Below, piece by piece: positions 12,726-55,893 of a stretch of DNA of 64,000 bases (positions are counted from its first letter, which is position 1; each line of letters opens with the position of its first letter). The notes below the pieces were generated by a model. That model was not told where the DNA came from. It saw only the letters and a program-made list of their open reading frames with translations, and did no database searches. Source of the stretch: Synchiropus splendidus (taxonomy: Eukaryota > Chordata > Actinopteri > Syngnathiformes > Callionymidae); the NCBI RefSeq assembly GCF_027744825.2, contig NC_071334.1:33387937-33451936 (forward strand), given 5' to 3'. A program made the position numbers and the translations under genes.

Positions 12726-12731
12726 AAAAAG
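12726..12731 (+). repeat. Target-site duplication, left copy
   Basis: AAAAAG directly before the transposon end. The same hexamer follows the other end at 18601-18606 and is present once at the empty site (55888-55893, opposite strand). Confidence 0.92.
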
Positions 12732-12764
12732 TACGGAAGAGGATTAGGGCCAGTAAAGAAAACT

Positions 12765-12956
12765 TTAACTTTAAAGTGAGAATTCTGACTTTAAAGTGAG
12801 AATTCTCACTTTTTTCTCAGAATTCTGACTTAAAAGTGAGAATTCTGACTTCAATCTCAGAATTCTGACTTTAAAGTGAGAATTCTCACTTTTTTCTCAG
12901 AATTCTGACTTTAAAGTGAGAATTCTGACTTTAATCTCAGAATTCTCACTTTGTGA
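12765..12956 (+). repeat. Subterminal AGAATTCT/ACTTTAAAGT array
   Basis: Roughly 20-bp units alternate 'ctttaaagtgagaattct' and 'gactttaatctcagaattct'. Each centres on palindromes (GAATTC, ACTTTAAAGT). Such subterminal repeats are usual transposase-binding candidates. The right end has a shorter array at 18444-18562. Confidence 0.8.
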
Positions 12957-13018
12957 CGTTGAGCAATGAATTGTGGGGCGGGAAACGTCAGATCGCTGTG
13001 TAGCTGTGAAGAGACAAC

Positions 13019-13093
13019 ATGTCATCGACCAGTGACTTTTTGCGCAGTCGAGGAGTTTCAGAGGACATCATCTCACTTATGGAGGAGCAGAGG
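13019..13093 (+). CDS. Shared first exon, HECT gene copy
   Basis: Twenty-five codons starting MSSTSDFLRSRG and ending EEQR, followed by a consensus donor (agg|gtgagt). It ends in phase 0 and joins the exon at 14152 in frame. The sequence 'SEDIISLMEEQ' resembles the start of a SAM-like helical domain. The exon is repeated exactly in the right TIR (18302-18376). Confidence 0.85.
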
Positions 13094-14151
13094 GTGAGTA
13101 ACATATTGCCCTCATTTGGTGACTGTTGAGTACTTAAAGGAAATGCTCCATGTAGCTTGTAGCTTCGCTGCTAATTCATATCACATTGATGGGATCTACC
13201 CGCGTGAATATGCAGATTAGGAGTCGTTGGTTCCTTCAGACAAAAGTATTCAAGAGACAGTCCAGATACGTCATGGTGACGTCATATAACATTTGTAGAA
13301 CTCGGCGACACTTTGCATCCAGCCCCTTTGCTTGCTTGACGGAGCCAGCGATCCGGTAATTAAGGAAGAGGCAGACACCGCTCCTCATTCACAACATTGC
13401 TTTCATTAAATCAGTCAAATATACGATTGTAAAATAACAGAAACTGTGCGATCACTGAACAAACAGACAACATTTGAACAAACCAGCACGTCTTGACGCT
13501 ATTAACCATCGTGCCATTAACATACATGCATATGAGCCAGTAATCTCCTGTCTTTGGTGACTTATTTTGCAGACATTCACATGTTCAGCGCACAAAAGAG
13601 ACGTATCTAATGTTCTAGAGTCATCGCCGCCAAGGTGTCAGTGACGATGTGAGTGTGTTTGTAATATATTGGGAACTTGAATGAAGGCAACTGTTCGTTT
13701 GGTGCGTGCATTTTATTTTACGCCCGTCACACTCACTCGCCGATGCTTCGTCAAGCGTGTTGGCCAACAAAAACCTTCCCTTAACCATCGCTAATATCAG
13801 TGCACTCCACTCCACTAACACCTACTAGGGCAACAACACAGTCTATAACACGGTTGTTAATTATATTTCTTGTTCTTATATTGCTCGCATGCTTCACGCT
13901 GCTGCTGTCGTTTGTTGTCGAATGTGTTGAATCTAATTTTAGACTCATTAAGCTTATTTAAATCTAAGTAGTTTTGAAATAATATTTTTAGGCATATATG
14001 TACATCACAAATTATTAATATATTTCAACGTGTAACAGTTGCAGCATTTTTGTCAGTTTGTATTTTATTTACAATTTTATAATACTTACAATACTTTGTG
14101 ATTCTGTTATATTTTAATTGATTGTCTTTTTTTGCTGTTTTTCTTGTGCAG
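13094..14151 (+). other. Intron 1 of the HECT gene
   Basis: Opens gtgagtaac and closes tttttcttgtgcag, with a strong polypyrimidine tract. Its first 87 bp belong to the TIR. No other gene is seen inside. Confidence 0.8.
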
Positions 14152-15915
14152 ATTGATAGTGACGTCATCTCACTGATGGATGATGAAAGTCTTGCCAATT
14201 TCATCCCCTGTTATGGAGACCGAATTGCTCTCTTCAATTTTTGCAAGACAAAACAGCCCCCATTAAAAAGAAAAAACGGACTTTTGGAAAAACTCAGTGA
14301 AAAAATAAAACTCAGAAATGAAAGTGCGAAAGGGGACACTGCCTCAAAAACGAAAATACAACAGATTAAGAGGCAGAAAACCACAAGAAATGTTGCGATT
14401 GGATGGATACACAATGATGGAAAAATAGCAAAACAGGTGAGGGAGAAGCAGGGAGGAGGTACCAGAAAGGTTAAAATGTCCACAGAAGCTGGGTTAAAGG
14501 ACATTCTTGAGGAGGGAAAAAAACTGTTTTTCCCTGGTGGAATTTCTCCTAAAGGATCTGAATTGGACTTCGAGTTTGAGGTGTGGGATTTCAAACAGAA
14601 TTACCTCACTGATGACACCTGCCAGTCCATTGGCAATATGTACGAGGCAGCAAAACTGACGTTGTTGCGTTTTTACATTGCAACAAGGCGAAAAGATGAG
14701 CAAGATGACGCCAGCACAACGACAGGGGAAGTCTTGGCTTTGTCACACAATGGCAGTGAAAACAACTCTGCAGAAATTGAGGAGGTCACAGTTGAATCAA
14801 GTGAAGTCTACATATCTTTGGACATTTCTGTTGATTCAGAAATTACTTTTGGTCCCACATATGATGCAGAGGAAGATACAGAGGTCACATTGATTTACGA
14901 TGGTCCAGCTATGCCTCTCAGTCCACCTGATCCACCAGATGCGATGACAATAACTGTTCACTACTCTGACACATTGAATGATATGATTACAGCTTTCTCT
15001 GATGACGCCATCTTGAACAAATCACTGAATGTGAAACGCATATTACCAGATAATAGAGAAGAAGCAGGTGTTGGATCTGGAGTGCTGAGGGATGTTCTTA
15101 GCTGCTTCTGGCAAGAATTCTATGAACGATGCACCCTTGGTACAATAGTTAAAGTGCCATTCATCCGCCATGATTTTCCTGAGGAAAAGTGGAAAGCAGT
15201 TGGGAGAATCCTTGTTAAAGGTTACCAAGATTGTTGCTATTTCCCAAACAAACTTGCATTTCCCTTCCTCGAACAAGTGCTTTTTAACTGTGTTTACAGT
15301 GATGCGAAAGCCCATTTCCTGCAGTTTGTGAGCAGCCAGGAACGAGATGTGTTGATGGAAGCAATGAAGGACTTTTCTGAAGTGGACCTAGATGATCTTG
15401 TCGAAGTACTTGACAGCTATGGCTGTAGAAGGAGAATCACAGCTGAAACCTTTCCCACAATACTGCTGGAAATAGCACACAAAGAGCTGGTCCAAAAGCC
15501 CATGTTTGTTATAGACTGCTGGAGGGAGGTTACTCTTCAGCATATCTCCATCAGTCCTGAAGCACTGAACAAATTGTGCTCTGACTTGCAACCAAAAGTC
15601 TGCCAACTGCTGAGATTTGCGACTGATTTAACCCCAAAGCAGAAAGAAGTGGCAAGTCATCTGAAAAAGTTCATCAGAGAGTTGGATGAAGTCAAGCTTC
15701 AGAAGTTTCTCCGGTTTTGCACTGGCTCTGATCTTGTTGTTACAGACACCATTCCTGAGGAATTCCAGGAAATGACAGAGTTCACGAGAAGACCCGTGGG
15801 GCACACCTGTGGGAAAGTTCTGCATATTGCTGAAAGCTATGAAAATTTCCCAGATTTCCGATCAGAATTCAATGCAGTTCTCGAAAGCAATGTTTGGATG
15901 ATGGACATTGTTTAA
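14152..15915 (+). CDS. HECT-type E3 ubiquitin ligase-like protein, main exon
   Basis: With the exon at 13019-13093 this encodes 612 residues. An upstream TTG at 14122 lies in the intron and is not the start. Residues 1-60 look SAM-like ('DSDVISLMDDESLANFIPC'). Residues about 105-205 form a domain ('GWIHNDGK', 'LFFPGGISPKG') that I recall from fish HECT proteins related to G2E3. An acidic linker follows. Residues about 290-612 are HECT-like ('GVGSGVLRDVLSCFWQEF'). The C-lobe HTC motif places the likely thioester cysteine at residue 578. A polyadenylation signal AATAAA lies at 16089-16094. It probably ubiquitinates something; the substrate and role in transposition are unknown. Confidence 0.85.
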   Translation: MDSDVISLMDDESLANFIPCYGDRIALFNFCKTKQPPLKRKNGLLEKLSEKIKLRNESAKGDTASKTKIQQIKRQKTTRNVAIGWIHNDGKIAKQVREKQGGGTRKVKMSTEAGLKDILEEGKKLFFPGGISPKGSELDFEFEVWDFKQNYLTDDTCQSIGNMYEAAKLTLLRFYIATRRKDEQDDASTTTGEVLALSHNGSENNSAEIEEVTVESSEVYISLDISVDSEITFGPTYDAEEDTEVTLIYDGPAMPLSPPDPPDAMTITVHYSDTLNDMITAFSDDAILNKSLNVKRILPDNREEAGVGSGVLRDVLSCFWQEFYERCTLGTIVKVPFIRHDFPEEKWKAVGRILVKGYQDCCYFPNKLAFPFLEQVLFNCVYSDAKAHFLQFVSSQERDVLMEAMKDFSEVDLDDLVEVLDSYGCRRRITAETFPTILLEIAHKELVQKPMFVIDCWREVTLQHISISPEALNKLCSDLQPKVCQLLRFATDLTPKQKEVASHLKKFIRELDEVKLQKFLRFCTGSDLVVTDTIPEEFQEMTEFTRRPVGHTCGKVLHIAESYENFPDFRSEFNAVLESNVWMMDIV

Positions 15916-16519
15916 TTGTTTTGCACCCTTAACTAGAGGAATATAACGATCTAAAAAGTTCATGGGCTTCATTTAAAAGAAAGCCTAAGATGTTATACTT
16001 ACTATTGGGAAGTTGTTTCAGCAGCTGCATTGTTTTATATGGATATATACCATGCTGCTACTATGAAGAGTAATATTTTATTGCATTCAATAAACTCACT
16101 CTTCTACAACTTTGTATTTCTGTCTTCACCTGAGTGTTTATTAAGTGTGTAAATATGAAGTGTCTCATAATGTTGTTCATATGTTTTGTAAAATGTTTTT
16201 TGCAATACATAGTACTTCAAAAATATTTATGGAACCAATCGAAACTAAAAAAAACGACATTGTAGACAGCGAATTATACACAGGAAAATATTTTCTGTCA
16301 CTCATTTTGGTAGGTGAAGTTTTACATAGATTCATCACAACTCAGGTGAAATGTTTAATGCCCTTTTATTTATTTGTGACTTACAGAAAATACATTTAAA
16401 ATGTCATGTGTGAAAAATCACAATACGTAAACTCAAAGGACAAAAAATGTGTCGAATTCATTCTCTTAATGACACAGTTAGATGCCGAAGTTTTAATAAA
16501 TATTACATCAATAGACTTG
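15916..16519. other. Convergent 3' ends of the two transposon genes
   Basis: No further gene. It has AATAAA at 16089 for the plus gene and its complement TTTATT at 16365-16370 for the minus gene. The two transcripts probably end before overlapping. It is AT-rich. Confidence 0.65.
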
Positions 16520-16846
16520 TCATACAATCTTCAATATTTCTCCCCTCAATGTAATGTACAAATCACTTGCATCTAATGGATCTGATGGAGCATGCCATTC
16601 ATTTTCCTCCATGAGCAGACAACACAGCTCAAAAACAGTTTCATCACAAGGAAACGGGGCTTTTGGCGTGCACTCTTCCATACATACAATGACCTCTTCC
16701 ATTTCAGCAGATTTCAGTCGATCCTCAGCACTGTGAATGGCAGGGAATGAATACATGACGACTGGCCGACCTGAAGCTGCATCACCGGTCAACCTTGATC
16801 TTATTTTGTGGGAGTTCCATGTGTTCACAACTTCATCCAGCTCATC
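16520..16846 (-). CDS. Integrase-like transposase, last exon
   Basis: Begins after a good acceptor (gctttttgggcag) in phase 0 with 'DELDEVVNTWNSHKIR' and ends at TGA, 108 residues. 'WNSHKIR...GRPVVMY' is the typical C-terminal end of this integrase family and would not be included if translation ran on past the donor at 17079. The GTG at 16828 is not a start. Confidence 0.85.
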   Translation of the reverse strand, partial: DELDEVVNTWNSHKIRSRLTGDAASGRPVVMYSFPAIHSAEDRLKSAEMEEVIVCMEECTPKAPFPCDETVFELCCLLMEENEWHAPSDPLDASDLYITLRGEILKIV

Positions 16847-17079
16847 CTGCCCAAAAAGCGGAATAGTTAAGTATTGATATTATTGACATTTTGCCCAGCA
16901 ACTTTATGAACATTCAATTTGCTTGTTTGAGTCATCCCATCTACAGTATGCACTATGCAAAATGACAAAAGTATCTGTAGTACATCTGACTGTCTTACTT
17001 CAAGTATTTCGGAATTAAATTTTTACCATTGATTAATTTCAATGCAGAAAAAATAATATGCACAGACAAAGTCTTTTAC
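16847..17079 (-). other. Intron 2 of the transposase gene
   Basis: Donor cag|gtaaaag and acceptor ttttgggcag|g. Removing it joins 'ILNLMQ' to 'DELDEVV' without a frame change. Confidence 0.8.
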
Positions 17080-17958
17080 CTGCATGAGATTGAGAATGCA
17101 GAACTGGATGAGGCTTTTATCCAGAAAGTTTCCTGTGAAGTGACCATCATCCTGAAGAGTTTGAAATAAATTCATCCAGAATTGTGCAGTCTGTTTACGG
17201 AGGGTGGTCCACCATCCTTCAATGCGCTGATTGGCGGTACTTCTTCCATAAAGGAAACTTTTGTCCCCTGCAAAGCTATCTGAGTGGTTTCTTCGCAAAA
17301 ACATTTGCATCTGTTCAACATGGCCATTTTCTGTGCCCCTGTCAGCACGGATCCTTTCTGGGCATCCACCAATGCGTGAAACTGTTTTAATAAAGTAACT
17401 TGCAACCACCTTCGGACCATTGTTTGTGGTGTAGGCCTCTGCCCATAATACGTATCGGCTAAACCCGTCAATGCAGCCATGGATGCCAATCCCATAGGGT
17501 TTCAATTTATCATAGCCATCCATGTGCCAAACAGCATTTGGTCCTCTGCAGCTGTATTGCCGTCTTCGTAGGCGTCGTGCTCTTCTTAATTCCACACCAA
17601 CGGGGTCAATCATTTTTATAATTTGCCGTATTGTGTCTTGTGACACAACAAATCCTTTCTGAATTGCTCGTAGATGAAGCCATCGATAACCTTGCATCTG
17701 CCCACTCGTCATGATCTCTTGCTGGATAAAAGCCAACACTTCTCCCAGGTCTGACTGGTTCTTTCTTCGATACAAACCAAGTCTTCGGCATATGCTCTTC
17801 AGAGTCCGAATACTCATGACAGTCTGAGCACGATGTGCCACTACTGCAAGTATTTCTTTATTGCTGAGTGAAAGTCTAAAGCACAGCTTGATGAAGTCAT
17901 CCAAATCTGGCTTTTCAGCTGCCACTGTGTGAGTTGTAGCCTCCATCAGTCACTTTAT
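17080..17958 (-). CDS. DDE integrase-like transposase, main exon
   Basis: Catalytic recombinase of the element. From ATG at 17946 it encodes 289 residues, then splices to 16520-16846 for 397 in total. The N-terminal 30-60 region ('ILAVVAHRA'...'LKSICRRLGLYRR') looks like a helix-turn-helix, followed by an arginine-rich linker (121-129). The rve-type core shows D143 ('HMDGYDKL'), D202 ('RADRGTEN') and E243 ('NQRIEGWW'), with 40 residues between the last two. All three acidic residues are present. Upstream, exon 1 (18302-18376) splices in at 17958, but the joined frame meets TGA at 17952-17950, two codons before this ATG. Translation must start here unless the stop is bypassed. Confidence 0.88.
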
Positions 17959-18301
17959 CTGCACAAGAAAAGATAAAAAACAATCATATTTTAGAATTAC
18001 TGAAATAATGTAGCGTCTGACAAAACAGTATGCATATTATATATTTTGTAAATAATAATGTTCGCATTTATCGTGTTGTGTCAGTTTCAACAGTTCACTA
18101 CACTCATCAACCTTCCCAGTTAGTAGTAAAATACAGACGTGTGTGTGCATATGTGTGTCTATGTGTATATGACATCACCGTGACATATATGGATTGTCAC
18201 GTCAGTCTCTTTTTTATGAATTAGTAGCGAAGCTACAAGCTACATGGAGCATTTCCTTTAAGTACTCAACAGTCACCAAATGAAGGCAATATGTTACTCA
18301 C
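17959..18301 (-). other. Intron 1 of the transposase gene
   Basis: Donor agg|gtgagt and acceptor cttttcttgtgcag, nearly identical to the HECT gene's intron ends. A GT/AT-rich patch lies at 18135-18170. Confidence 0.75.
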
Positions 18302-18376
18302 CCTCTGCTCCTCCATAAGTGAGATGATGTCCTCTGAAACTCCTCGACTGCGCAAAAAGTCACTGGTCGATGACAT
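18302..18376 (-). CDS. Shared first exon, transposase gene copy
   Basis: Same 25 codons and donor as 13019-13093. Spliced to the exon at 17958 it is followed in frame by Ile, Lys and TGA. As written it therefore forms a 27-codon upstream frame ending just before the transposase ATG. Confidence 0.7.
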
Positions 18377-18443
18377 GTTGTCTCTTCACAGCTACACAGC
18401 GATCTGACGTTTCCCGCCCCACAATTCATTGCTCAACGTCACA

Positions 18444-18562
18444 AAGTGAGAATTCTGAGATTAAAGTCAGAATTCTCACTTTAAAGTCAGAATTCTGAGA
18501 TTAAAGTCAGAATTCTCACTTTAAAGTCAGAATTCTGAGATTAAAGTCAGAATTCTGAGATT
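18444..18562 (-). repeat. Subterminal AGAATTCT array, right
   Basis: Six or so units of 'ttaaagtcagaattct' alternating with 'gagattaaagtcag'. Fewer and more homogeneous than the left array. Confidence 0.75.
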
Positions 18563-18600
18563 TTTTTTTTTTTCTTTACTGGCCCTAATCCTCTTCCGTA

Positions 18601-18606
18601 AAAAAG
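18601..18606 (+). repeat. Target-site duplication, right copy
   Basis: AAAAAG immediately after the transposon, matching 12726-12731. Confidence 0.92.
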
Positions 18607-29158: not shown

Positions 29159-29984
29159 TCCATCAGACAACATTGAGCTAGTATCCATGTGGAGGAACAC
29201 AGCTCTTGTCATGTAAACTGTTCCTGCCATTCTCTGGCATCAACAGCACAAACTGGACCTGAATGAAAGTGGTTGGAAAGACTTCATTCCCTCAGATTTA
29301 GCCTCCTGCACCAGGCTACACAGATGTGATGAAGAGCTGGGTGAAGACAACTACAAGGAAAGTCGTCTGTTGTCCTGAAAAAGAAAGAAAAAGAAGAACT
29401 TGAACTAAGCAGGACACACTTTGCATTGTGAAGAGCATTTCAAATGGGACCCACCTCAGTCTTTCCCATAAGTTCCTTTTGAAATGAGTGATTTCCTTCA
29501 TGATGTTTTCTGTCACATCACATTCATTGTATAAACTATCTTACTCATGATAAGTGTGTTAACAATCACTATTTTCCCTCTCAGTCCTAACTTCCTGGTT
29601 TTCCCAGAGTTTAATCCTTATTGTCTGTTTCATGTCAGAAGAGAAATCCATGAAGGTTATAGACGTCCTTCAATGTTGAAAACCTGCCAACCAGTGGCAG
29701 AAATATCATCTCTAACAGACGTCTGGACTGCAAACAACTCCTCCAGGATCTCTGCTAACTGTCATCGCACCACTTTCATGGAGTCAGAAGCCTCTTGGTG
29801 CCACTGGAAAACAAGGCACGGAATTGTCCTTGAGCAGAGACAGAGAGACAGTGAACAGCTGGAACAACATTTGACTTTGTTGGTGGAACAAGCTTGGACT
29901 GAATGGTGGTTCATGAGGTTGGACAGTGAGAGTGGGAGAGAGGCTTGAAATGACCTGGCATCTGCTCTGCCAAGTCTAAAATGC

Positions 29985-30056
29985 AGGTTCCACCGAGACT
30001 TGAACTCGGATCACTGGATTCAGAGTCCAGAGTGCTGACCATTACACCATGGAACC
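29985..30056 (-). tRNA. tRNA-Gln (CTG)
   Basis: Intact. Exact mate 52459-52530 (x+y = 82,515). Confidence 0.95.
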
Positions 30057-30602
30057 TCATATGTCCTTCACTGAACATCAAGTAAATCCAGTATTAGAAA
30101 CTTTGTTGGATAGACCTGAATTATATTTCTGTGATTATTTTGAGTGACATTAATGTTAATAAAATAACTTTAAGCAGGGACGAAACACAGTGTTTAACCT
30201 ATTACCAATGGAACAGCTCGCCACCTAGTGGTTTTATTTATTTTTTTTATTTGTTTTCAACAGAACAGGTGATGATGAATAAACAAATAAAAATACAGGC
30301 ACATTATGGCAATATGAGGCCAGCAGTTCAAAGACAAAGTATAATAACCTGTAAGAGAAACTACATGATGACTTAGGGACATATATATAGCTTTTACTGA
30401 ATATTTTGACACTGCTTTTGTGCTCTCAAAGTGTCTGTCCATCGATTTTAAAATGTAGCAAAGACCAACACAGTGATGTATTATCACACTGACCGTTCGG
30501 CTCTTAACCGAACAGTTGGTGGTTGGATCCCACCCAGGGTCCATGATGATCACCCAGACAGCCATATGAAGCTCACCTTCATCGAAATTGAAGATTCCAT
30601 GA

Positions 30603-30674
30603 GCATTGGTGCTGTAGACGTTAGCAGAGCTGCCTTCCAAGCAGTTGACATGGGTTTGATTCCCATCCAGTACA
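30603..30674 (+). tRNA. tRNA-Gly (TCC) variant
   Basis: Same as 27794-27865, one acceptor mismatch. Mate 51841-51912. Confidence 0.6.
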
Positions 30675-30800
30675 AGGCACCTCTGTGTTTGCTGTACAAT
30701 CTGGAGTCTTCCCATCAACCTTTCTCAGACATGGACTGATAACATGGCCCAGGGTTTTAGTAATGAACTGTGATGTTGTTGAAGATGCGTAGAAACGAAG

Positions 30801-30872
30801 TGCAATGGCTGGGAATCAAACCCAGGTCAATTGCTTGGAAGGCAGCTGTGCTCGCCACGATACAACCATTGC
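30801..30872 (-). tRNA. tRNA-Gly (TCC)
   Basis: All stems pair, including acceptor gcaatgg/ccattgc. Loop CTTCCAA. Mate 51643-51714. Confidence 0.9.
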
Positions 30873-30889
30873 CAATTCTATCCAGGAAC

Positions 30890-31264
30890 AACCAAAAACA
30901 CTGAAAGCGGCCACAACAACCTGGAGCTGAACACCCAGAAGACAGTGGAGATGATCATAGACTTCAGGAGAGTAACAGTTTCTCTGTCCCCTCTCATGTT
31001 GGCTGGTTTGCCCATTCTTATTGTGGACTCCTTCTGCTTCCTAGGAACCGCCATCACTGAGGACCTCAAATGGGAGCCAACCATCAGGTCCCTCATCAGG
31101 AAGGACCAGCAGAGAATGTTCTTCTTTAGGCTGCTACGAAAACTACGACTGCCGATGAGGTTGCTGGTGGAGTTCTACACAGCCATCATCCAGTCCATCA
31201 TCACCTCCTCTATCACCGTCTGGTACAACAGCGCCACCTCCAGGGACAAGAGCAGACTGCATAA
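30890..31264 (+). mobile_element. LINE 3' fragment, truncated at both ends
   Basis: Frame 'LELNTQKTVEMIIDFRR' to 'SRDKSRL', then an abrupt switch to unrelated sequence at about 31260. Mirrored with the same break at 51250-51612. Confidence 0.72.
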
Positions 31265-32100
31265 TGTGGTAGTATGTCATCTGATTTAGTCATTTCTTTT
31301 CTCTCTTGGCTTCTATTGAAGCAGGCGATGAGACCGGCAGTGCAACAGTACGTGACGAGGACACTCGCAACTCCAAATGAACCAACAGAATAGACACGCT
31401 GTGAATCACTTAAAATTGAATTTACATATGTTTGGCAGTTTCTGTTAATGCTAGAATGAAAGACAAATATTGCACAACGCTCCCTGATGGGCGGGAGTAA
31501 TAACCGCATGTCACTGACTCCACCAAAACAATCAGTGAGCATTTCTTCTGATGGTTATTTTATAATTCCATGCTGTCTGTGCTTCATTTAGCTTGCTGGT
31601 GCTTGGTTCTTCAGAGCTGGTCTCCTTCTTCTCATGCAGGGCTTGAAAATGCCTCAGCATGGAAGTGTTGTTGTTGAACACAACAGGCACTTCACCTTAC
31701 GATCGAAACATCAGCTATAGCAACAATCCATCACAACACATCGCACACTCGATTACACCTGTAGTATTTTGGAATTACCTTATTGGGAGAGTTGAGGTCA
31801 AAGTGTTCCCAACAGGGGAAAACGTTTCACTCTTTCACAGTGTTTGCATGACAGCACAGGGATCACAGTCATGACAAAACAGGAAAACTTCATTGCATCG
31901 AGTTGCTGCTTAAATCTAGAATTGTCCACTTCCCGAACTAGTCACATGGTACGGCCGGTTTCAAGGCTTCGGCTGTCGTCTTCAGAGCATTCCTCGTTGT
32001 GCGTTTTATATACTCGCTGCCAGTTTACTCTGTTCATGCAGAATCTTGAGTGATCACCTCATCATCTTAACCACTCATCCACAACAACACAGCAGGCATG
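31265..32100. other. Inner-arm unique stretch, no gene assigned
   Basis: Present only here and inverted at 50410-51250. The near-perfect mirror keeps small frames open on both strands. I see no RNA gene or recognisable protein. Confidence 0.5.
32052..32088 (-). pseudogene. tRNA-Ser 5' fragment
   Basis: Acceptor 5' strand and D-arm (gttgttgtggatgagtggttaag), then lost. Mirror 50427-50463. Confidence 0.75.
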
Positions 32101-32815
32101 GGAAAATTCAAGATGGCGCCGACGAAGGCTGGCTTGGCATTATTGTGTGTGTTACTTTGCTTGTTTTATGTTTTGACGGAGCATGTTCTTACACCCAAAA
32201 TGAGTCGATGAACATCAGGTCTATCACGCCGTCTGACTTATTGTCTGTATTTGTTGTGTGAGGCTTGGAGTTAGTCCACTTTTCGACTGGACAAAAGAGG
32301 CTGAGGAGGAGAGGGAAACGTTCATTTGTTTGCCTTCGCCAAAGAGGATCACGCACACCGCTTCATGGGATGTTCCACTCCAACGTCCTCCTCTTGTGTT
32401 TTGTGTTCCACACAGATGTAGTTGAGCAAACTCATACCGGACAATGTGCTTCATCCAGAGGGGTTCCACCTTCACCGGGTACTGCACAGTCTCTGCACAA
32501 TGCTTATAAGGCCCTCCCTCGAGCAGAACTGGGACTCTGACCACTTGATGGTCCATCTTGTCCCCACATACTGTACAAGCAGAGATTGAAGCTTGCAAAG
32601 CGTGTTGTGTAGCGCATGAAGATCTGGATGAGTGATGCTGTGAGAAAGAGGCAGCTCACAAGAGTGGGCACACAAGCTGAAATATCAGACAAACTTAGGC
32701 AGCAGTTCTCAGGCAGTGACTCGGCTGCAGTGTGGAGAGGGCTCAAGGTGGTCACAAACCTCACTCTTGCACAGGACTTGAACAACTTTTAGTGTCGTTT
32801 TGAGCATCCATTGAG
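32100..32815 (+). mobile_element. LINE ORF2 fragment: start, endonuclease end, linker
   Basis: Frames in series resemble L2/CR1-type ORF2. A leader 'MAPTKAGLALLCVLLCLF' is followed by 'RQRGSRTPLHGMFHSNVLLL' (endonuclease entry). After a deletion come 'NAYKALPRAELGL' and 'DHLMVHLVPTYC' (endonuclease end), then 'SDSAAVWRGLKVVTNL' (linker before the reverse transcriptase). Several frameshifts and stops make it non-coding. Mirror 49700-50415. Confidence 0.65.
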
Positions 32816-32990
32816 CCCTGTCTCATGTCAATGGTTCTTTGGATATTCTTTTGGGGTGTTCCATCATCTTGTATGGGCATAGTATGGGCGGGATAAAGCT
32901 CTTCCTGCACACACCAACTTTAGGAGAGATTGTGATTCATAAACAGCAAAAGGGATATAATGTACTCAGTGTAATAAAACACACACATTC

Positions 32991-33072
32991 CATTGTTGGT
33001 AGGACTCAAACCTACGTGGGGAAACCCCAATGGATTTCGAGTCCATCGCCTTAACCTCTCGGCCACAACAAC
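32991..33072 (-). tRNA. tRNA-Ser (CGA)
   Basis: Intact class II tRNA with loop CTCGAAA and D-arm gagaggtt. Downstream TTTT on the minus strand. Mate 49443-49524. Confidence 0.93.
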
Positions 33073-33939
33073 ACATTCAACACAACCTTCCATCCTTTTG
33101 CATTCGAATTTTTTCCTTAATCCTCCACCTCAAACTTAATCCACAAAAACTCATGTGAGGGTCAAGGACTGTTACGATTGTTGGAAAGTTCAATTGAGGA
33201 GCAACATTGAGGAATGGACCTCTCTCAGCATTGAGAAACTCCACGACCTTCCTCTGTATTGAGGAATACCCAGAATCCTTTGCGTAGTATCCAGGAATAA
33301 AAGCGTGGCACTGAAGGCGACAAAGAAAGCGAGCTTCAAATGTAAGTGTTTTCTTTGTTCATGGACACATAAAAAACAGAAGGCATAAACACAGCTGCAG
33401 TATCTGCAATAAGGAATCTCTCATTTCTGAGGAACCAAACCTTCCTTCACCCTTGGTTTTGAGGAATCTGGTTAAGGATTGGAATTGAGCATTCAGGAAG
33501 CATTTGGAATTCATCCTAAGGGTACGCTCACACCGCCGGCTACTCTTCAGTTGCAGTAGCGCCAGTCGTCAGTTGTTAGCTCCAGCCATGATGAGTTGAG
33601 TCCTGCCCGGCACCAACACGTTGCCAAAGTAGGTCAATCGGCTCCCTTCCCATCCCAAATAATATTCCTTATCACATCAGTGATTCATTCATTATGTTTT
33701 CTGTCATCACATTCCCTTTTTATCTTGGTGATCAATTCCTCCTATTGATTTCTTTCTGCTATTTCATTTTCCTTCCCTAAATTTACAATTTTCGTATATT
33801 CTTGCATCACCTGTAAATCCAGACCTGAAGCTGGTGGGTTCTCATCGCTTGTATACTGTACATCACCTCTGGTATTAAGGTAATAATGGCTCCCGATGCC
33901 TTTCCAAAACTTGACTCACACACTTCACACGTAAGAGAC
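33073..33939. repeat. Spacer with truncated Harbinger-like end
   Basis: No gene. Near 33520-33640 a piece starting agggtacgctcacaccg resembles the ends of the Harbinger-like element, mirrored at 48870-49000. Positions 33650-33935 are the Gln downstream flank. Confidence 0.5.
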
Positions 33940-34011
33940 AGGTTCCACCGAGAGTTGAACTCGGATCACTGGATTCAGAGTCCAGAGTGCTGACCATTAC
34001 ACCATGGAACC
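33940..34011 (-). tRNA. tRNA-Gln (CTG)
   Basis: Intact. Mate 48504-48575. Confidence 0.94.
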
Positions 34012-34349
34012 TTGGTTGTTGCACGCCTTTCAGTGAACATCCAGTTTAGTGAGTATCAGAAACTGTTGCATTTGAGACATTTGCATTTTTACATACATTT
34101 CTGTGATTGTTGATAAGTTATGTTCATCAAAAACAACTTTACTTTAAGAACCATTTGCTCAAACTTTTGTTTTCCTTTTCACCTAGCAGAGACGTAACAG
34201 TGTTAAACCTATTACCTATGGGACAGCTCGCCACTGAGTAGTTTTTTAATATGTTTAATGTATAACAGAACATACATCAACAGGTGATGACAAATACACA
34301 AATGTAAAAAATATACGCAAAATATTGCAATTCGAGGTCAGTCAGTTCA

Positions 34350-48178: not shown

Positions 48179-48503
48179 GACCTCGAATTGCAATAATTTG
48201 CGTATATTTTTTACATTTGTTTATTTGTCATCACCTGTTGATGTATGTTCTGTTATACATTAAACATATTAAAAAACTACTCAGTGGCGAGCTGTCCCAT
48301 AGGTAATAGGTTTAACATTGTTACATAGCTGCTTGGTGAAAAGGAAAACAAAAGTTTGAGCAAATGGTTGTTAAAGTAAAGTTGTTTTAGATGAACATAA
48401 CTTATCAACAATCACAGAAATGCATGTAAAAATGCAAATGTCTCTGCAACAGTTTCTGATACTCACTAAACTGGATGTTCACTGAAAGATGTGCAACAAC
48501 CAA

Positions 48504-48575
48504 GGTTCCATGGTGTAATGGTCAGCACTCTGGACTCTGAATCCAGTGATCCGGGTTCAACTCTCGGTGGAACCT
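48504..48575 (+). tRNA. tRNA-Gln (CTG)
   Basis: Intact. T stem 5' strand cgggttcaactctcgg has one change from its sister 33940-34011. Confidence 0.9.
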
Positions 48576-49442
48576 GTCTCTTAGGTGTGAAGTGTGTGAG
48601 TCAAGTTTTGGAAAGGCATCGGGAGCCATTATTACCTTAATACCAGAGGTGATGTACAGTATACAAGCGATGAGAACCCACCAGCTTCAGGTCTGGATTT
48701 ACAGGTGATGCAAGAATATACGAAAATTGTAAATTTAGGGAAGGAAAATGAAATAGCAGAAAGAAATCAATAGGAGGAATTGATCACCAAGATAAAAAGG
48801 GAATGTGATGACAGAAAACATAATGAATGAATCACTGATGTGATAAGGAATATTATTTGGGATGGGAAGGGAGCCGATTGACCTACTTTGGCAACATGTT
48901 GGTGCCGGGCAGGACTCAACTCATCATGGCTAGAGCTAACAACTGACGACTGGCGCTACTGCAACTGAAGAGTAGCCGGCGGTGTGAGCGTACCCTTAGG
49001 ATGAATTCCAAATGCTTCCTTAATACTCAATTCCAATCCTTAACCAGATTCCTCAAAACCAAGGGTGAAGGAAGATTTGGTTCCTCAGAAATGGAAGATT
49101 CCTTATTGCAGATACTGCAGCTGTGTTCATGCCTTCTGTTTTTTATGTCTCCATGAACAAAGAAAACACTTACATTTGAAGCTCGCTTTCTTTGTCGCCT
49201 TCAGTGCCACGCTTTTATTCCTGGATACTACGCAAAGGATTCTGGGTATTCCTCAATACAGAGGAAGGTCGTGGAGTTTCTCAATGCTGAGAGAGGTCCA
49301 TTCCTCAATGTTGCTCCTCAATTGAACTTTCCAACAATCGTAACAGTCCTTGACCCTCACATGAGTTTTTATGGATTAAGTTTGAGGTGGAGGATTAAGG
49401 AAAAAATTCGAATGCAAAAGGATGGAAGGTTGTGTTGAATGT
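48576..49442. repeat. Spacer, mirror of 33073-33939
   Basis: Contains the truncated Harbinger-like end at 48870-49000. No gene. Confidence 0.5.
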
Positions 49443-49524
49443 GTTGTTGTGGCCGAGAGGTTAAGGCGATGGACTCGAAATCCATTGGGGTTTCCCCACG
49501 TAGGTTTGAGTCCTACCAACAATG
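49443..49524 (+). tRNA. tRNA-Ser (CGA)
   Basis: Intact, TTTT about 15 nt downstream. Confidence 0.93.
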
Positions 49525-49699
49525 GAATGTGTGTGTTTTATTACACTGAGTACATTATATCCCTTTTGCTGTTTATGAATCACAATCTCTCCTAAAGTTG
49601 GTGTGTGCAGGAAGAGCTTTATCCCGCCCATACTATGCCCATACAAGATGATGGAACACCCCAAAAGAACATCCAAAGAACCATTGACATGAGACAGGG

Positions 49700-50415
49700 C
49701 TCAATGGATGCTCAAAACGACACTAAAAGTTGTTCAAGTCCTGTGCAAGAGTGAGGTTTGTGACCACCTTGAGCCCTCTCCACACTGCAGCCGAGTCACT
49801 GCCTGAGAACTGCTGCCTAAGTTTGTCTGATATTTCAGCTTGTGTGCCCACTCTTGTGAGCTGCCTCTTTCTCACAGCATCACTCATCCAGATCTTCATG
49901 CGCTACACAACACGCTTTGCAAGCTTCAATCTCTGCTTGTACAGTATGTGGGGACAAGATGGACCATCAAGTGGTCAGAGTCCCAGTTCTGCTCGAGGGA
50001 GGGCCTTATAAGCATTGTGCAGAGACTGTGCAGTACCCGGTGAAGGTGGAACCCCTCTGGATGAAGCACATTGTCCGGTATGAGTTTGCTCAACTACATC
50101 TGTGTGGAACACAAAACACAAGAGGAGGACGTTGGAGTGGAACATCCCATGAAGCGGTGTGCGTGATCCTCTTTGGCGAAGGCAAACAAATGAACGTTTC
50201 CCTCTCCTCCTCAGCCTCTTTTGTCCAGTCGAAAAGTGGACTAACTCCAAGCCTCACACAACAAATACAGACAATAAGTCAGACGGCGTGATAGACCTGA
50301 TGTTCATCGACTCATTTTGGGTGTAAGAACATGCTCCGTCAAAACATAAAACAAGCAAAGTAACACACACAATAATGCCAAGCCAGCCTTCGTCGGCGCC
50401 ATCTTGAATTTTCCC
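49700..50415 (-). mobile_element. LINE ORF2 fragment
   Basis: Mirror of 32100-32815 with the same frameshifts. Confidence 0.65.
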
Positions 50416-50426
50416 ATGCCTGCTGT

Positions 50427-50463
50427 GTTGTTGTGGATGAGTGGTTAAGATGATGAGGTGATC
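50427..50463 (+). pseudogene. tRNA-Ser 5' fragment
   Basis: Mirror of 32052-32088. Confidence 0.75.
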
Positions 50464-51249
50464 ACTCAAGATTCTGCATGAACAGAGTAAACTGGCAGCG
50501 AGTATATAAAACGCACAACGAGGAATGCTCTGAAGACGACAGCCGAAGCCTTGAAACCGGCCGTACCATGTGACTAGTTCGGGAAGTGGACAATTCTAGA
50601 TTTAAGCAGCAACTCGATGCAATGAAGTTTTCCTGTTTTGTCATGACTGTGATCCCTGTGCTGTCATGCAAACACTGTGAAAGAGTGAAACGTTTTCCCC
50701 TGTTGGGAACACTTTGACCTCAACTCTCCCAATAAGGTAATTCCAAAATACTACAGGTGTAATCGAGTGTGCGATGTGTTGTGATGGATTGTTGCTATAG
50801 CTGATGTTTCGATCGTAAGGTGAAGTGCCTGTTGTGTTCAACAACAACACTTCCATGCTGAGGCATTTTCAAGCCCTGCATGAGAAGAAGGAGACCAGCT
50901 CTGAAGAACCAAGCACCAGCAAGCTAAATGAAGCACAGACAGCATGGAATTATAAAATAACCATCAGAAGAAATGCTCACTGATTGTTTTGGTGGAGTCA
51001 GTGACATGCGGTTATTACTCCCGCCAATCACGGAGCGTTGTGCAATATAAGTCTTTCATTCGTGCATTAACAGAAACTGCCAAACATATGTAAATTCAAT
51101 TTCAAGTGATTCACAGCGTCTCTATTCTGTTGGTTCATTTGGAGTTGCGAGCGTCCTCGTCACGTACTGTTGCACTGCCGGTCTCATCGCCTGCTTCAAT
51201 AGAAGCCAAGAGAGAAAAGAAATGACTAAATCAGATGACATACTACCAC
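50464..51249. other. Inner-arm unique stretch, no gene assigned
   Basis: Mirror of 31265-32050. Confidence 0.5.
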
Positions 51250-51612
51250 ATTATGCAGTCTGCTCTTGTACCTGGAGGGGGCGCTGTTGTACCAGACGGT
51301 GATAGAGGAGGTGATGATTGACTGGATGATGGCCGTGTAGAACTCCACCAGCAACTTCATCAGCAGTCGTAGTTTTCGTAGCTGCCTAAAGAAGAACATT
51401 CTCTGCTGGTCCTTCCTGATGAGGGACCTGATGGTTGGCTCCCATTTGAGGTCCTCAGTGATGGTGGTTCCTAGGAAGCAGAAGGAGTCCACAATAAGAA
51501 TGGGCAAACCAGCCAACATGAGAGGGGACAGAGAAACTGTTACTCTCCTGAAGTCTATGATCATCTCCACTGTCTTCTGGGTGTTCAGCTCCAGGTTGTT
51601 GTGGCCGCCTTG
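51250..51612 (-). mobile_element. LINE 3' fragment
   Basis: Mirror of 30890-31264, same truncation points. Confidence 0.72.
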
Positions 51613-51642
51613 AGTGTTTTTGCTTGTTCCCGGATAGAATTG

Positions 51643-51714
51643 GCAATGGTTGTATCGTGGTGAGCACAGCTGCCTTCCAAGCAATTGACCTGGGTTTGAT
51701 TCCCAGCCATTGCA
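51643..51714 (+). tRNA. tRNA-Gly (TCC)
   Basis: All stems pair: acceptor gcaatgg/ccattgc, loop CTTCCAA, T-arm ctgggtttgattcccag. Confidence 0.92.
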
Positions 51715-51840
51715 CTTCGTTTCTACGCATCTTCAACAACATCACAGTTCATTACTAAAACCCTGGGCCATGTTATCAGTCCATGTCTGAGAAAGGTTGA
51801 TGGGAAGACTCCAGATTGTACAGCAAACACAGAGGTGCCT

Positions 51841-51912
51841 TGTACTGGATGGGAATCAAACCCATGTCAACTGCTTGGAAGGCAGCTCTGCTAACGTCTA
51901 CAGCACCAATGC
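51841..51912 (-). tRNA. tRNA-Gly (TCC) variant
   Basis: Mirror of 30603-30674, one acceptor mismatch. Confidence 0.6.
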
Positions 51913-52458
51913 ACATGGAATCTTCAATTTCGATGAAGGTGAGCTTCATATGGCTGTCTGGGTGATCATCATGGACCCTGGGTGGGATCCAACCACCAAC
52001 TGTTCGGTTAAGAGCCGAACGGTCAGTGTGATGATACATCACTGTGTTGCTCTTTGCTACATTTTAAAATCGATGGACAGACACTTTGAGAGCACAAAAG
52101 CAGTGTCAAAATATTCAGTAAAAGCTATATATATGTCCCTAAGTCATCATGTAGTTTCTCTTACAGGTTATTATACTTTGTCTTTGAACTGCTGACCTCA
52201 TATTGCCATAATGTGCCTGTATTTTTATTTGTTTATTCATCATCACCTGTTCTGTTGAAAACAAATCAAAAAAATAAATAAAACCACTAGGTGGCGAGCT
52301 GTTCCATTGGTAATAGGTTTAACACTGTGTTTCGTCCCTGCTTAAAGTTACTTTATTAACATTAATGTCACTCAAAATAATCACAGAAATATAATTAAGG
52401 TCTATAGAACAAAGTTTCTAATACTGGATTTGCTTGATGTTCGGTGAAGGACATATGA

Positions 52459-52530
52459 GGTTCCATGGTGTAATGGTCAGCACTCTGGACTCTGAATCCA
52501 GTGATCCGAGTTCAAGTCTCGGTGGAACCT
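52459..52530 (+). tRNA. tRNA-Gln (CTG)
   Basis: Intact consensus copy. Confidence 0.95.
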
Positions 52531-53285
52531 GCATTTTAGACTTGGCAGAGCAGATGCCAGGTCATTTCAAGGCTCTGTCCCACTCTCACTGTACAACCTC
52601 AAGAACCACCATTCAGTCCAAGCTTGTTCCACCAACAAAGTCAAATGTTGTTCCAGCTGTTCACTGTCTCTCTATCTCTGCTCAAGGACAATTCCGTGCC
52701 TTGTTTTCCAGTGGCACCAAGAGGCTTCTGACTCCATGAAAGTGGTGCGATGACAGTTAGCAGAGATCCTGGAGGAGTTGTTTGCAGTCCAGACGTCTGT
52801 TAGAGATGATATTTCTGCCACTGGTTGGCAGGTTTTCAACATTGAAGGACGTCTATAACCTTCATGGATTTCTCTTCTGAAAAGACAACATGAAACAGAC
52901 AATAAGGATTAAACTCTGGGAAAACCAGGAAGTTAGGACTGAGAGGGAAAATATTGATTGTTCACACACTTTTATGAGTAAGATAGTTTATACAATGAAT
53001 GTGATGACAGAAAACATCATGAAGGAAATCACTGATTTGATCAGGAATTTTTGGGGAGGTGGGTCCCATTTCAAATGCTCTTGACAATGCAAAGTGTCTT
53101 CACCCAGCTCTTCATCACATCTGTGTAGCCTGGTGCATGAGGCTAAATCTGAGGGAATGAAGTCTTTCCAACCACTTTCATTCAGGTCCAGTTTGTGCTG
53201 TTGATGCCAGTGAATGGCAGGAACAGTTCACATGACAAGAGCTGCGTTCCTCCACATGGATACTAGCTCAGTGTTGTCTGATGGA
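52531..53285. repeat. Unidentified repeat and iMet leader
   Basis: Mirror of 29480-29984 followed by the leader. The 52672-52902 minus frame is the 'HEGYRRPSMLK' segment. No gene called. Confidence 0.45.
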
Positions 53286-55887: not shown

Positions 55888-55893
55888 CTTTTT
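55888..55893 (-). other. Empty target site of the nested transposon
   Basis: On minus the sequence reads catgg-AAAAAG-agacgtc, precisely the two flanks seen on either side of 12732-18600 with one hexamer copy. Confidence 0.93.

Follow-up and report, generated by a model that had tools for sequence, protein, structure and literature searches.

One exon in both terminal inverted repeats of a two-gene transposon of Synchiropus splendidus: coding for a HECT ligase and probably leader for the transposase

Introduction

What does one and the same exon do at both ends of a transposon whose two genes encode a HECT ligase and a transposase? The question is raised by a 64,000-nucleotide stretch of the fish Synchiropus splendidus (contig NC_071334.1, positions 33,387,937 to 33,451,936, hereafter the window, with positions counted from its first letter), in which an unstranded element of 5,869 bp (12732..18600) with the termini TACGG...CCGTA carries an identical 75-bp exon in each of its terminal inverted repeats (TIRs). 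A sequence-only reading of the locus had proposed that this is one first exon serving two genes. The answer that we favour, with a probability of roughly 0.6, is that the element is a young autonomous two-gene transposon in which the TIR promoter and exon start both transcripts, with a translational brake on the transposase. The exon would thus probably have two roles, as a coding exon for the ligase and as a leader with an upstream open reading frame (ORF) for the transposase.

Results

The left TIR (12732..13180, plus strand) and the right TIR (18215..18600, minus strand) each contain exon 1, at 13019-13093 on the plus strand and at 18376-18302 on the minus strand, and the two copies match in 75/75 bp, encoding MSSTSDFLRSRGVSEDIISLMEEQR. 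Both are directly followed by GTGAGTAAC, with GTGAGT as the splice donor, and both acceptors read CTTGTGCAG, such that exon 2 begins at 14152 on the left and at 17958 on the right. The identity of exon and donor at the two ends, the common acceptor motif and the starts of the second exons all agree with the sequence-only reading.

On the left, exon 1 joins exon 2 (14152..15915, plus strand, including the stop codon) in frame at a phase-0 junction and supplies codons 1 to 25 of the HECT gene, whose spliced protein has 612 amino acids. Its closest relative among the matches listed is a Synchiropus splendidus protein, P0001, with 98% identity; that protein has 615 amino acids, with an in-frame gap near '...DLQPKVCQLL'. 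We sorted the N-termini of 120 listed ligase homologues (of 183 found) by a pattern count. In 43 of them an N-terminus of the exon-1 type is joined to ...[KRG]-I/V-D, and in a further 15 a translated intron runs into Q-I-D or Q-I-G at the junction point, the Q being the CAG of the acceptor. The other 62 show neither form and are mostly late-starting, shortened or partial models. Since sequences remote from fish, e.g., from Mytilus and Tribolium, are among those examined at the junction, the junction, as judged from these sequences, is old. The claim that the left exon reads in frame into the HECT exon is therefore borne out by homologues that share the place of the junction, and the comparison of sequences shows that the coding sequence of the ligase gene does begin with this exon.

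The same junction, which lies after residue 25, is predicted to cut through a SAM-like domain. In the structural model, the ligase N-terminus forms helices at residues 2-10, 15-23, 28-31, 36-39 and 46-58 (predicted local distance difference test, pLDDT, 80-90), such that exon 1 would provide the first two of them. The SAM_2 profile matched 5 of 11 sequences, with a best E of 0.015 that lies below its cut-off, and profile comparison of the N-terminus returned the SAM domains of tankyrase, ANKS4B and USH1G with E values of 0.009-0.14, a range in which unrelated matches of like E also occur, namely 8fje (0.0016) and an arylsulfatase (0.012). The protein has a HECT fold: a fold search with the whole model returned HECT chains only among the matches listed, and the catalytic cysteine of the C-lobe, C581 of P0001, is present in 23 of 24 aligned sequences, with a gap in P0025. 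There was no SAM chain among the 50 matches listed in this search, which barely probes the N-terminal part. Among the matches listed, relatives of the ligase come from fish, frogs, hemichordates, echinoderms, molluscs and beetles and are usually labelled 'uncharacterized protein'.

On the right, the situation differs. The transposase gene runs on the minus strand, with a first coding part that starts at an ATG at 17946 (17080..17946) and contains an rva_4 integrase core, and with an exon 3 that extends to the stop codon (16520..16846), giving a spliced protein of 397 amino acids. It is 98% identical to P0121, a Synchiropus splendidus protein of equal length (397 amino acids). Splicing of the right exon copy to 17958 would produce an ORF of 27 codons, M...EEQRIK, followed by TGA, CTG and the transposase ATG. 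The first nine nucleotides of this exon 2 (17950..17958, minus strand), ATA AAG TGA, thus close an upstream ORF that lies in the transposase's own frame, and 3 nt separate the stop from the ATG.

Could exon 1 still be an ordinary first coding exon shared by both proteins, as the identical exon and donor at the two ends would suggest at first sight? We consider this hardly credible. The TGA follows directly after IK in this copy, and use of the first AG beyond the stop, a poor site, would also remove the transposase ATG. Furthermore, the exon-1 sequence was found in 0 of 120 listed transposase homologues (of 1,055 found), and the models of relatives, P0121 included, begin at the exon-2 ATG. The TGA and this absence therefore argue that the right exon is not an ordinary first coding exon. 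For this copy, the TGA two codons into exon 2 rules out that exon 1 and the transposase are fused in frame. The proposal of one first exon for two genes thus holds for the ligase as a coding exon, and on the transposase side for a donor paired with a strong acceptor before the ATG, but it does not hold for a transposase coding exon.

The shared frame raises another way in which the exon could enter the transposase, namely by stop-codon read-through. A C directly after UGA makes for a relatively leaky stop, and the codon order …EEQRIK-TGA-L-M-E… places the upstream ORF in frame with the transposase, such that some ribosomes could read through and make a transposase with half a SAM domain, which could pair with the ligase or compete with it. 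Half of such a domain is not expected to fold, however, and such an N-terminus occurs in none of the 120 listed relatives, so that this explanation appears very improbable. When transposases with an exon-1 N-terminus were searched for directly, two candidates were scored and the one match was the ligase P0001; so insensitive a search does not amount to a negative result.

The more serious alternative is that the right copy does nothing. In this explanation exon 1 belongs to the ligase only and was copied to the other end when gene conversion or inverted duplication extended the TIR inward, while the transposase is transcribed from its own 5′ region. The absence of exon 1 from the listed transposases and the TGA that closes its frame both fit such a passive copy. 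So does the similarity of the repeats as a whole: the inner TIR arms (12832-13180 and 18215-18563) form a 349-bp inverted repeat with 97% identity, and with a divergence of 3% only about 2 differences are expected per 75 bp, such that an unselected exon could look alike. Yet the mismatches are unevenly placed. The 63-bp leader, which is the presumed promoter (12956..13018 on the plus strand, 18377..18439 on the minus strand), and the 75-bp exon together have 0 mismatches in 138 bp between the TIRs, whereas the subterminal outer repeats differ at 7 of 124 positions; the intron part has 2 mismatches in 87 bp. A comparison of the outer repeats (7/124) with leader, exon and intron part together (2/225) gives a Fisher p of 0.011. 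The leader also contains the 8-mer GCGGGAAA, at 12978 in the left copy, which presumably is an E2F-like site and which is present once per TIR but absent from both strands of the rest of the window.

The splice sites also speak against a passive copy. They were ranked over the whole window with an approximate splice matrix; the donors rank 25 and 24 among 7,925 GTs, the acceptors rank 38 (left) and 12 (right) among 8,263 AGs, and each acceptor is the best of its own intron. The right acceptor lies 12 nt upstream of the transposase ATG, where a 3′ splice site has a use only if an exon and its donor lie upstream, and the strong GTGAGT of the TIR is 343 nt away. Taken together, we regard the passive copy as possible but rather unlikely.

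The two acceptor regions align past their shared CTTGTGCAG with a score of 41, which was reached in 0 of 1000 simple simulations and in 14 of 5000 under a stricter null in which the core was kept fixed. Because the likeness extends beyond the common core, the two acceptors may share ancestry or be copies too.

Since the TGA closes its frame and exon 1 is absent from the 120 listed transposases, the right exon is read here as a leader with an upstream ORF. The start contexts suit this reading: the exon-1 ATG has an A at -3, while the transposase ATG has a C at -3 and a G at +4. Such contexts would favour the upstream ATG and reduce transposase output. Several points weigh against the reading, though. 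Sequence exchange could give the identity of the TIRs without any function on the right side, the likeness of the acceptors was seen first and tested only afterwards, and the placement of the exon in the TIR is known from a single element. In addition, the leader contains a further ATG at 12966 which is out of frame with exon 1; transcription must therefore start downstream of it, or else the ligase would also be impeded.

The limits of the element, 12732 and 18600, are those given by the sequence-only reading, and they are set by an empty paralogous site within the same window. A 6-bp target-site duplication (TSD), AAAAAG, flanks both ends (12726..12731 and 18601..18606, both unstranded), whereas the empty site, with an uninterrupted catggAAAAAGagacg, contains AAAAAG once only (55888..55893, minus strand); this TSD evidence comes from one element. 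The ends of the element read TACGGAAGAGGATTAGGGCCAGTAAAG, exact on either side, and the 27-bp terminal motif has only two occurrences in the whole window at up to 8 mismatches, namely the two ends. The right flank is identical to the empty paralogous unit at 1290 of 1300 positions, and because it is so close, the insertion would appear to be recent. The left flank is less clean, with 226 of 244 aligned bases identical in the nearest 300 (112 gap columns) and 729 of 851 over 1000 (298 gap columns), yet the bases adjoining the junction match the empty site.

The transposon sits inside one of the repeated tRNA-gene units of the window. Across the window (1-64000), 49 tRNA genes (for Gln, Met, Ser, Thr and Gly) are predicted; they lie in units that are repeated and inverted, among them a 4,441-bp inverted pair with 99% identity (29630-34070 and 48445-52885).

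Near the tips of the element, the left TIR carries subterminal 20-bp repeats with nine GAATTC cores in exact 20-bp steps (12780..12945, plus strand), and the right TIR has six such cores, also in 20-bp steps (18450..18555, minus strand). These repeats are possible binding sites for the transposase. Between the TIRs, the ligase and transposase genes are convergent, and poly(A)-type signals are found downstream of both. In other fish, the locus tags of ligase and transposase matches listed are in several cases adjacent or nearly so (024914/024917, 003485/003486 and 014761/014762 in Sarotherodon, 023528/023527 in Chaenocephalus), and the two genes therefore travel together there. Among viral contigs, no relative was found by alignment of the transposase (43 stretches, 0 confirmed) or of the ligase (40 stretches, 0 confirmed). 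A 29% relative of the transposase is encoded on a contig of a metagenome-assembled genome binned as Myxococcales (L001:1725-2474), which may represent eukaryotic contamination or a bacterial relative.

Discussion

To which group does this transposon belong? By its termini, its TSD and its DDE transposase, the sequence fits the IS3EU/GingerRoot superfamily. As far as the available parts of the two papers go, TA..TA termini are a constant feature of complete IS3EU families, which usually also show 6-bp TSDs (PMC10045372), and fungal families have TAYGG..CCRTA termini and a transposase oriented opposite to an alpha-kinase gene (PMC12730594). The ends TACGG...CCGTA conform to both patterns, and the 6-bp TSD and the DDE transposase are further likenesses to what is described there. 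The transposase has an integrase-like DDE core, with a match to rva_4 at E 3.7e-28 and to rve at E 4.6e-6, the latter below its cut-off; D143, D202 and E243 are kept in 20 of 20 aligned relatives, and a Foldseek search with the structural model matched IstA, Mu, TnsB and retroviral integrases. The accessory gene is where the element departs from the fungal TET+ families as described in those parts: the opposite orientation of transposase and accessory gene is the same, but an alpha-kinase there stands against a SAM-like/HECT ligase here. The available parts of PMC10045372 and PMC12730594 describe neither an accessory HECT gene nor an exon in the TIR. Likewise, a search of open-licence papers, with most subscription journals outside its scope, gave no paper that joins IS3EU with HECT, and searches there for the HECT domain together with DNA transposons or Repbase, and for HECT together with Ginger, gave nothing; looser searches on HECT gave a few papers that, to judge by their listings, were not of evident relevance.

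The sequence-only reading had known of no standard description of such an arrangement. This needs to be narrowed, because two systems come close in design. In maize MuDR, according to the portions of the sources available, the convergent transposase and accessory genes each have their promoter and start in their TIR (PMC3440606), and the TIR contains cell-cycle enhancer motifs (PMC3310237). The likeness, as far as those portions describe MuDR, lies in the two convergent genes, one for a transposase and one accessory, and in the TIR promoters, which are presumed in our case. The TIR of MuDR is described there as giving promoter and transcription start only, whereas the TIR here further includes a coding exon with its donor and some of the intron. 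In herpes simplex virus 1 (HSV-1), again from the part of the source available, the promoter of ICP47 (US12) lies in a repeat whose counterpart drives ICP22 (US1), and an intron precedes the coding sequence (PMC10688380). A repeat-borne promoter, presumed in our element, with an intron between it and the coding sequence is, within that account, common to both. HSV-1 is a herpesvirus and not a transposon, and its repeat-borne exon is noncoding for both ICP47 and ICP22, whereas the exon here codes for one gene. What sets our element apart is a repeat-borne coding exon whose role would depend on the gene to which it is joined.

In the mechanism that we propose, the long TIRs, each bearing subterminal repeats, a short promoter-leader, the 75-bp exon and a splice donor, would let the same promoter and exon begin the transcripts of ligase and transposase. 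In the ligase mRNA, translation of the exon would give the first half of the SAM-like domain. In the transposase mRNA the exon would be leader, with a 27-codon upstream ORF ending 3 nt before the transposase AUG, and ribosomes would reach that AUG by leaky scanning or reinitiation, such that the transposase would be made at a lower rate. Transcription would thereby be matched between the two genes, with a brake on transposase translation built into the element. The description of the TIR as a "bidirectional, symmetric" cassette is apt for the duplication of the exon and its upstream region, but "bidirectional" is loose, since each TIR copy faces inward only. A broader version, which we offer as a tentative suggestion drawn from the sequence, is that the TIR acts as a self-homogenising promoter-exon cassette, which would deliver half a SAM domain to the ligase mRNA and a 27-codon brake to the transposase mRNA, couple transcription, set the ratio of the two proteins and leave both genes equipped with a promoter even if the TIRs recombine and the interior is thereby inverted.

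The locus points to a transposon-borne HECT ligase with relatives spread across many animal groups. If the proposed reading is true, a simple physical rule would keep the accessory gene and the transposase under one promoter while the output of the transposase is damped, which bears on the long-standing question of how transposable elements avoid harm to their host.
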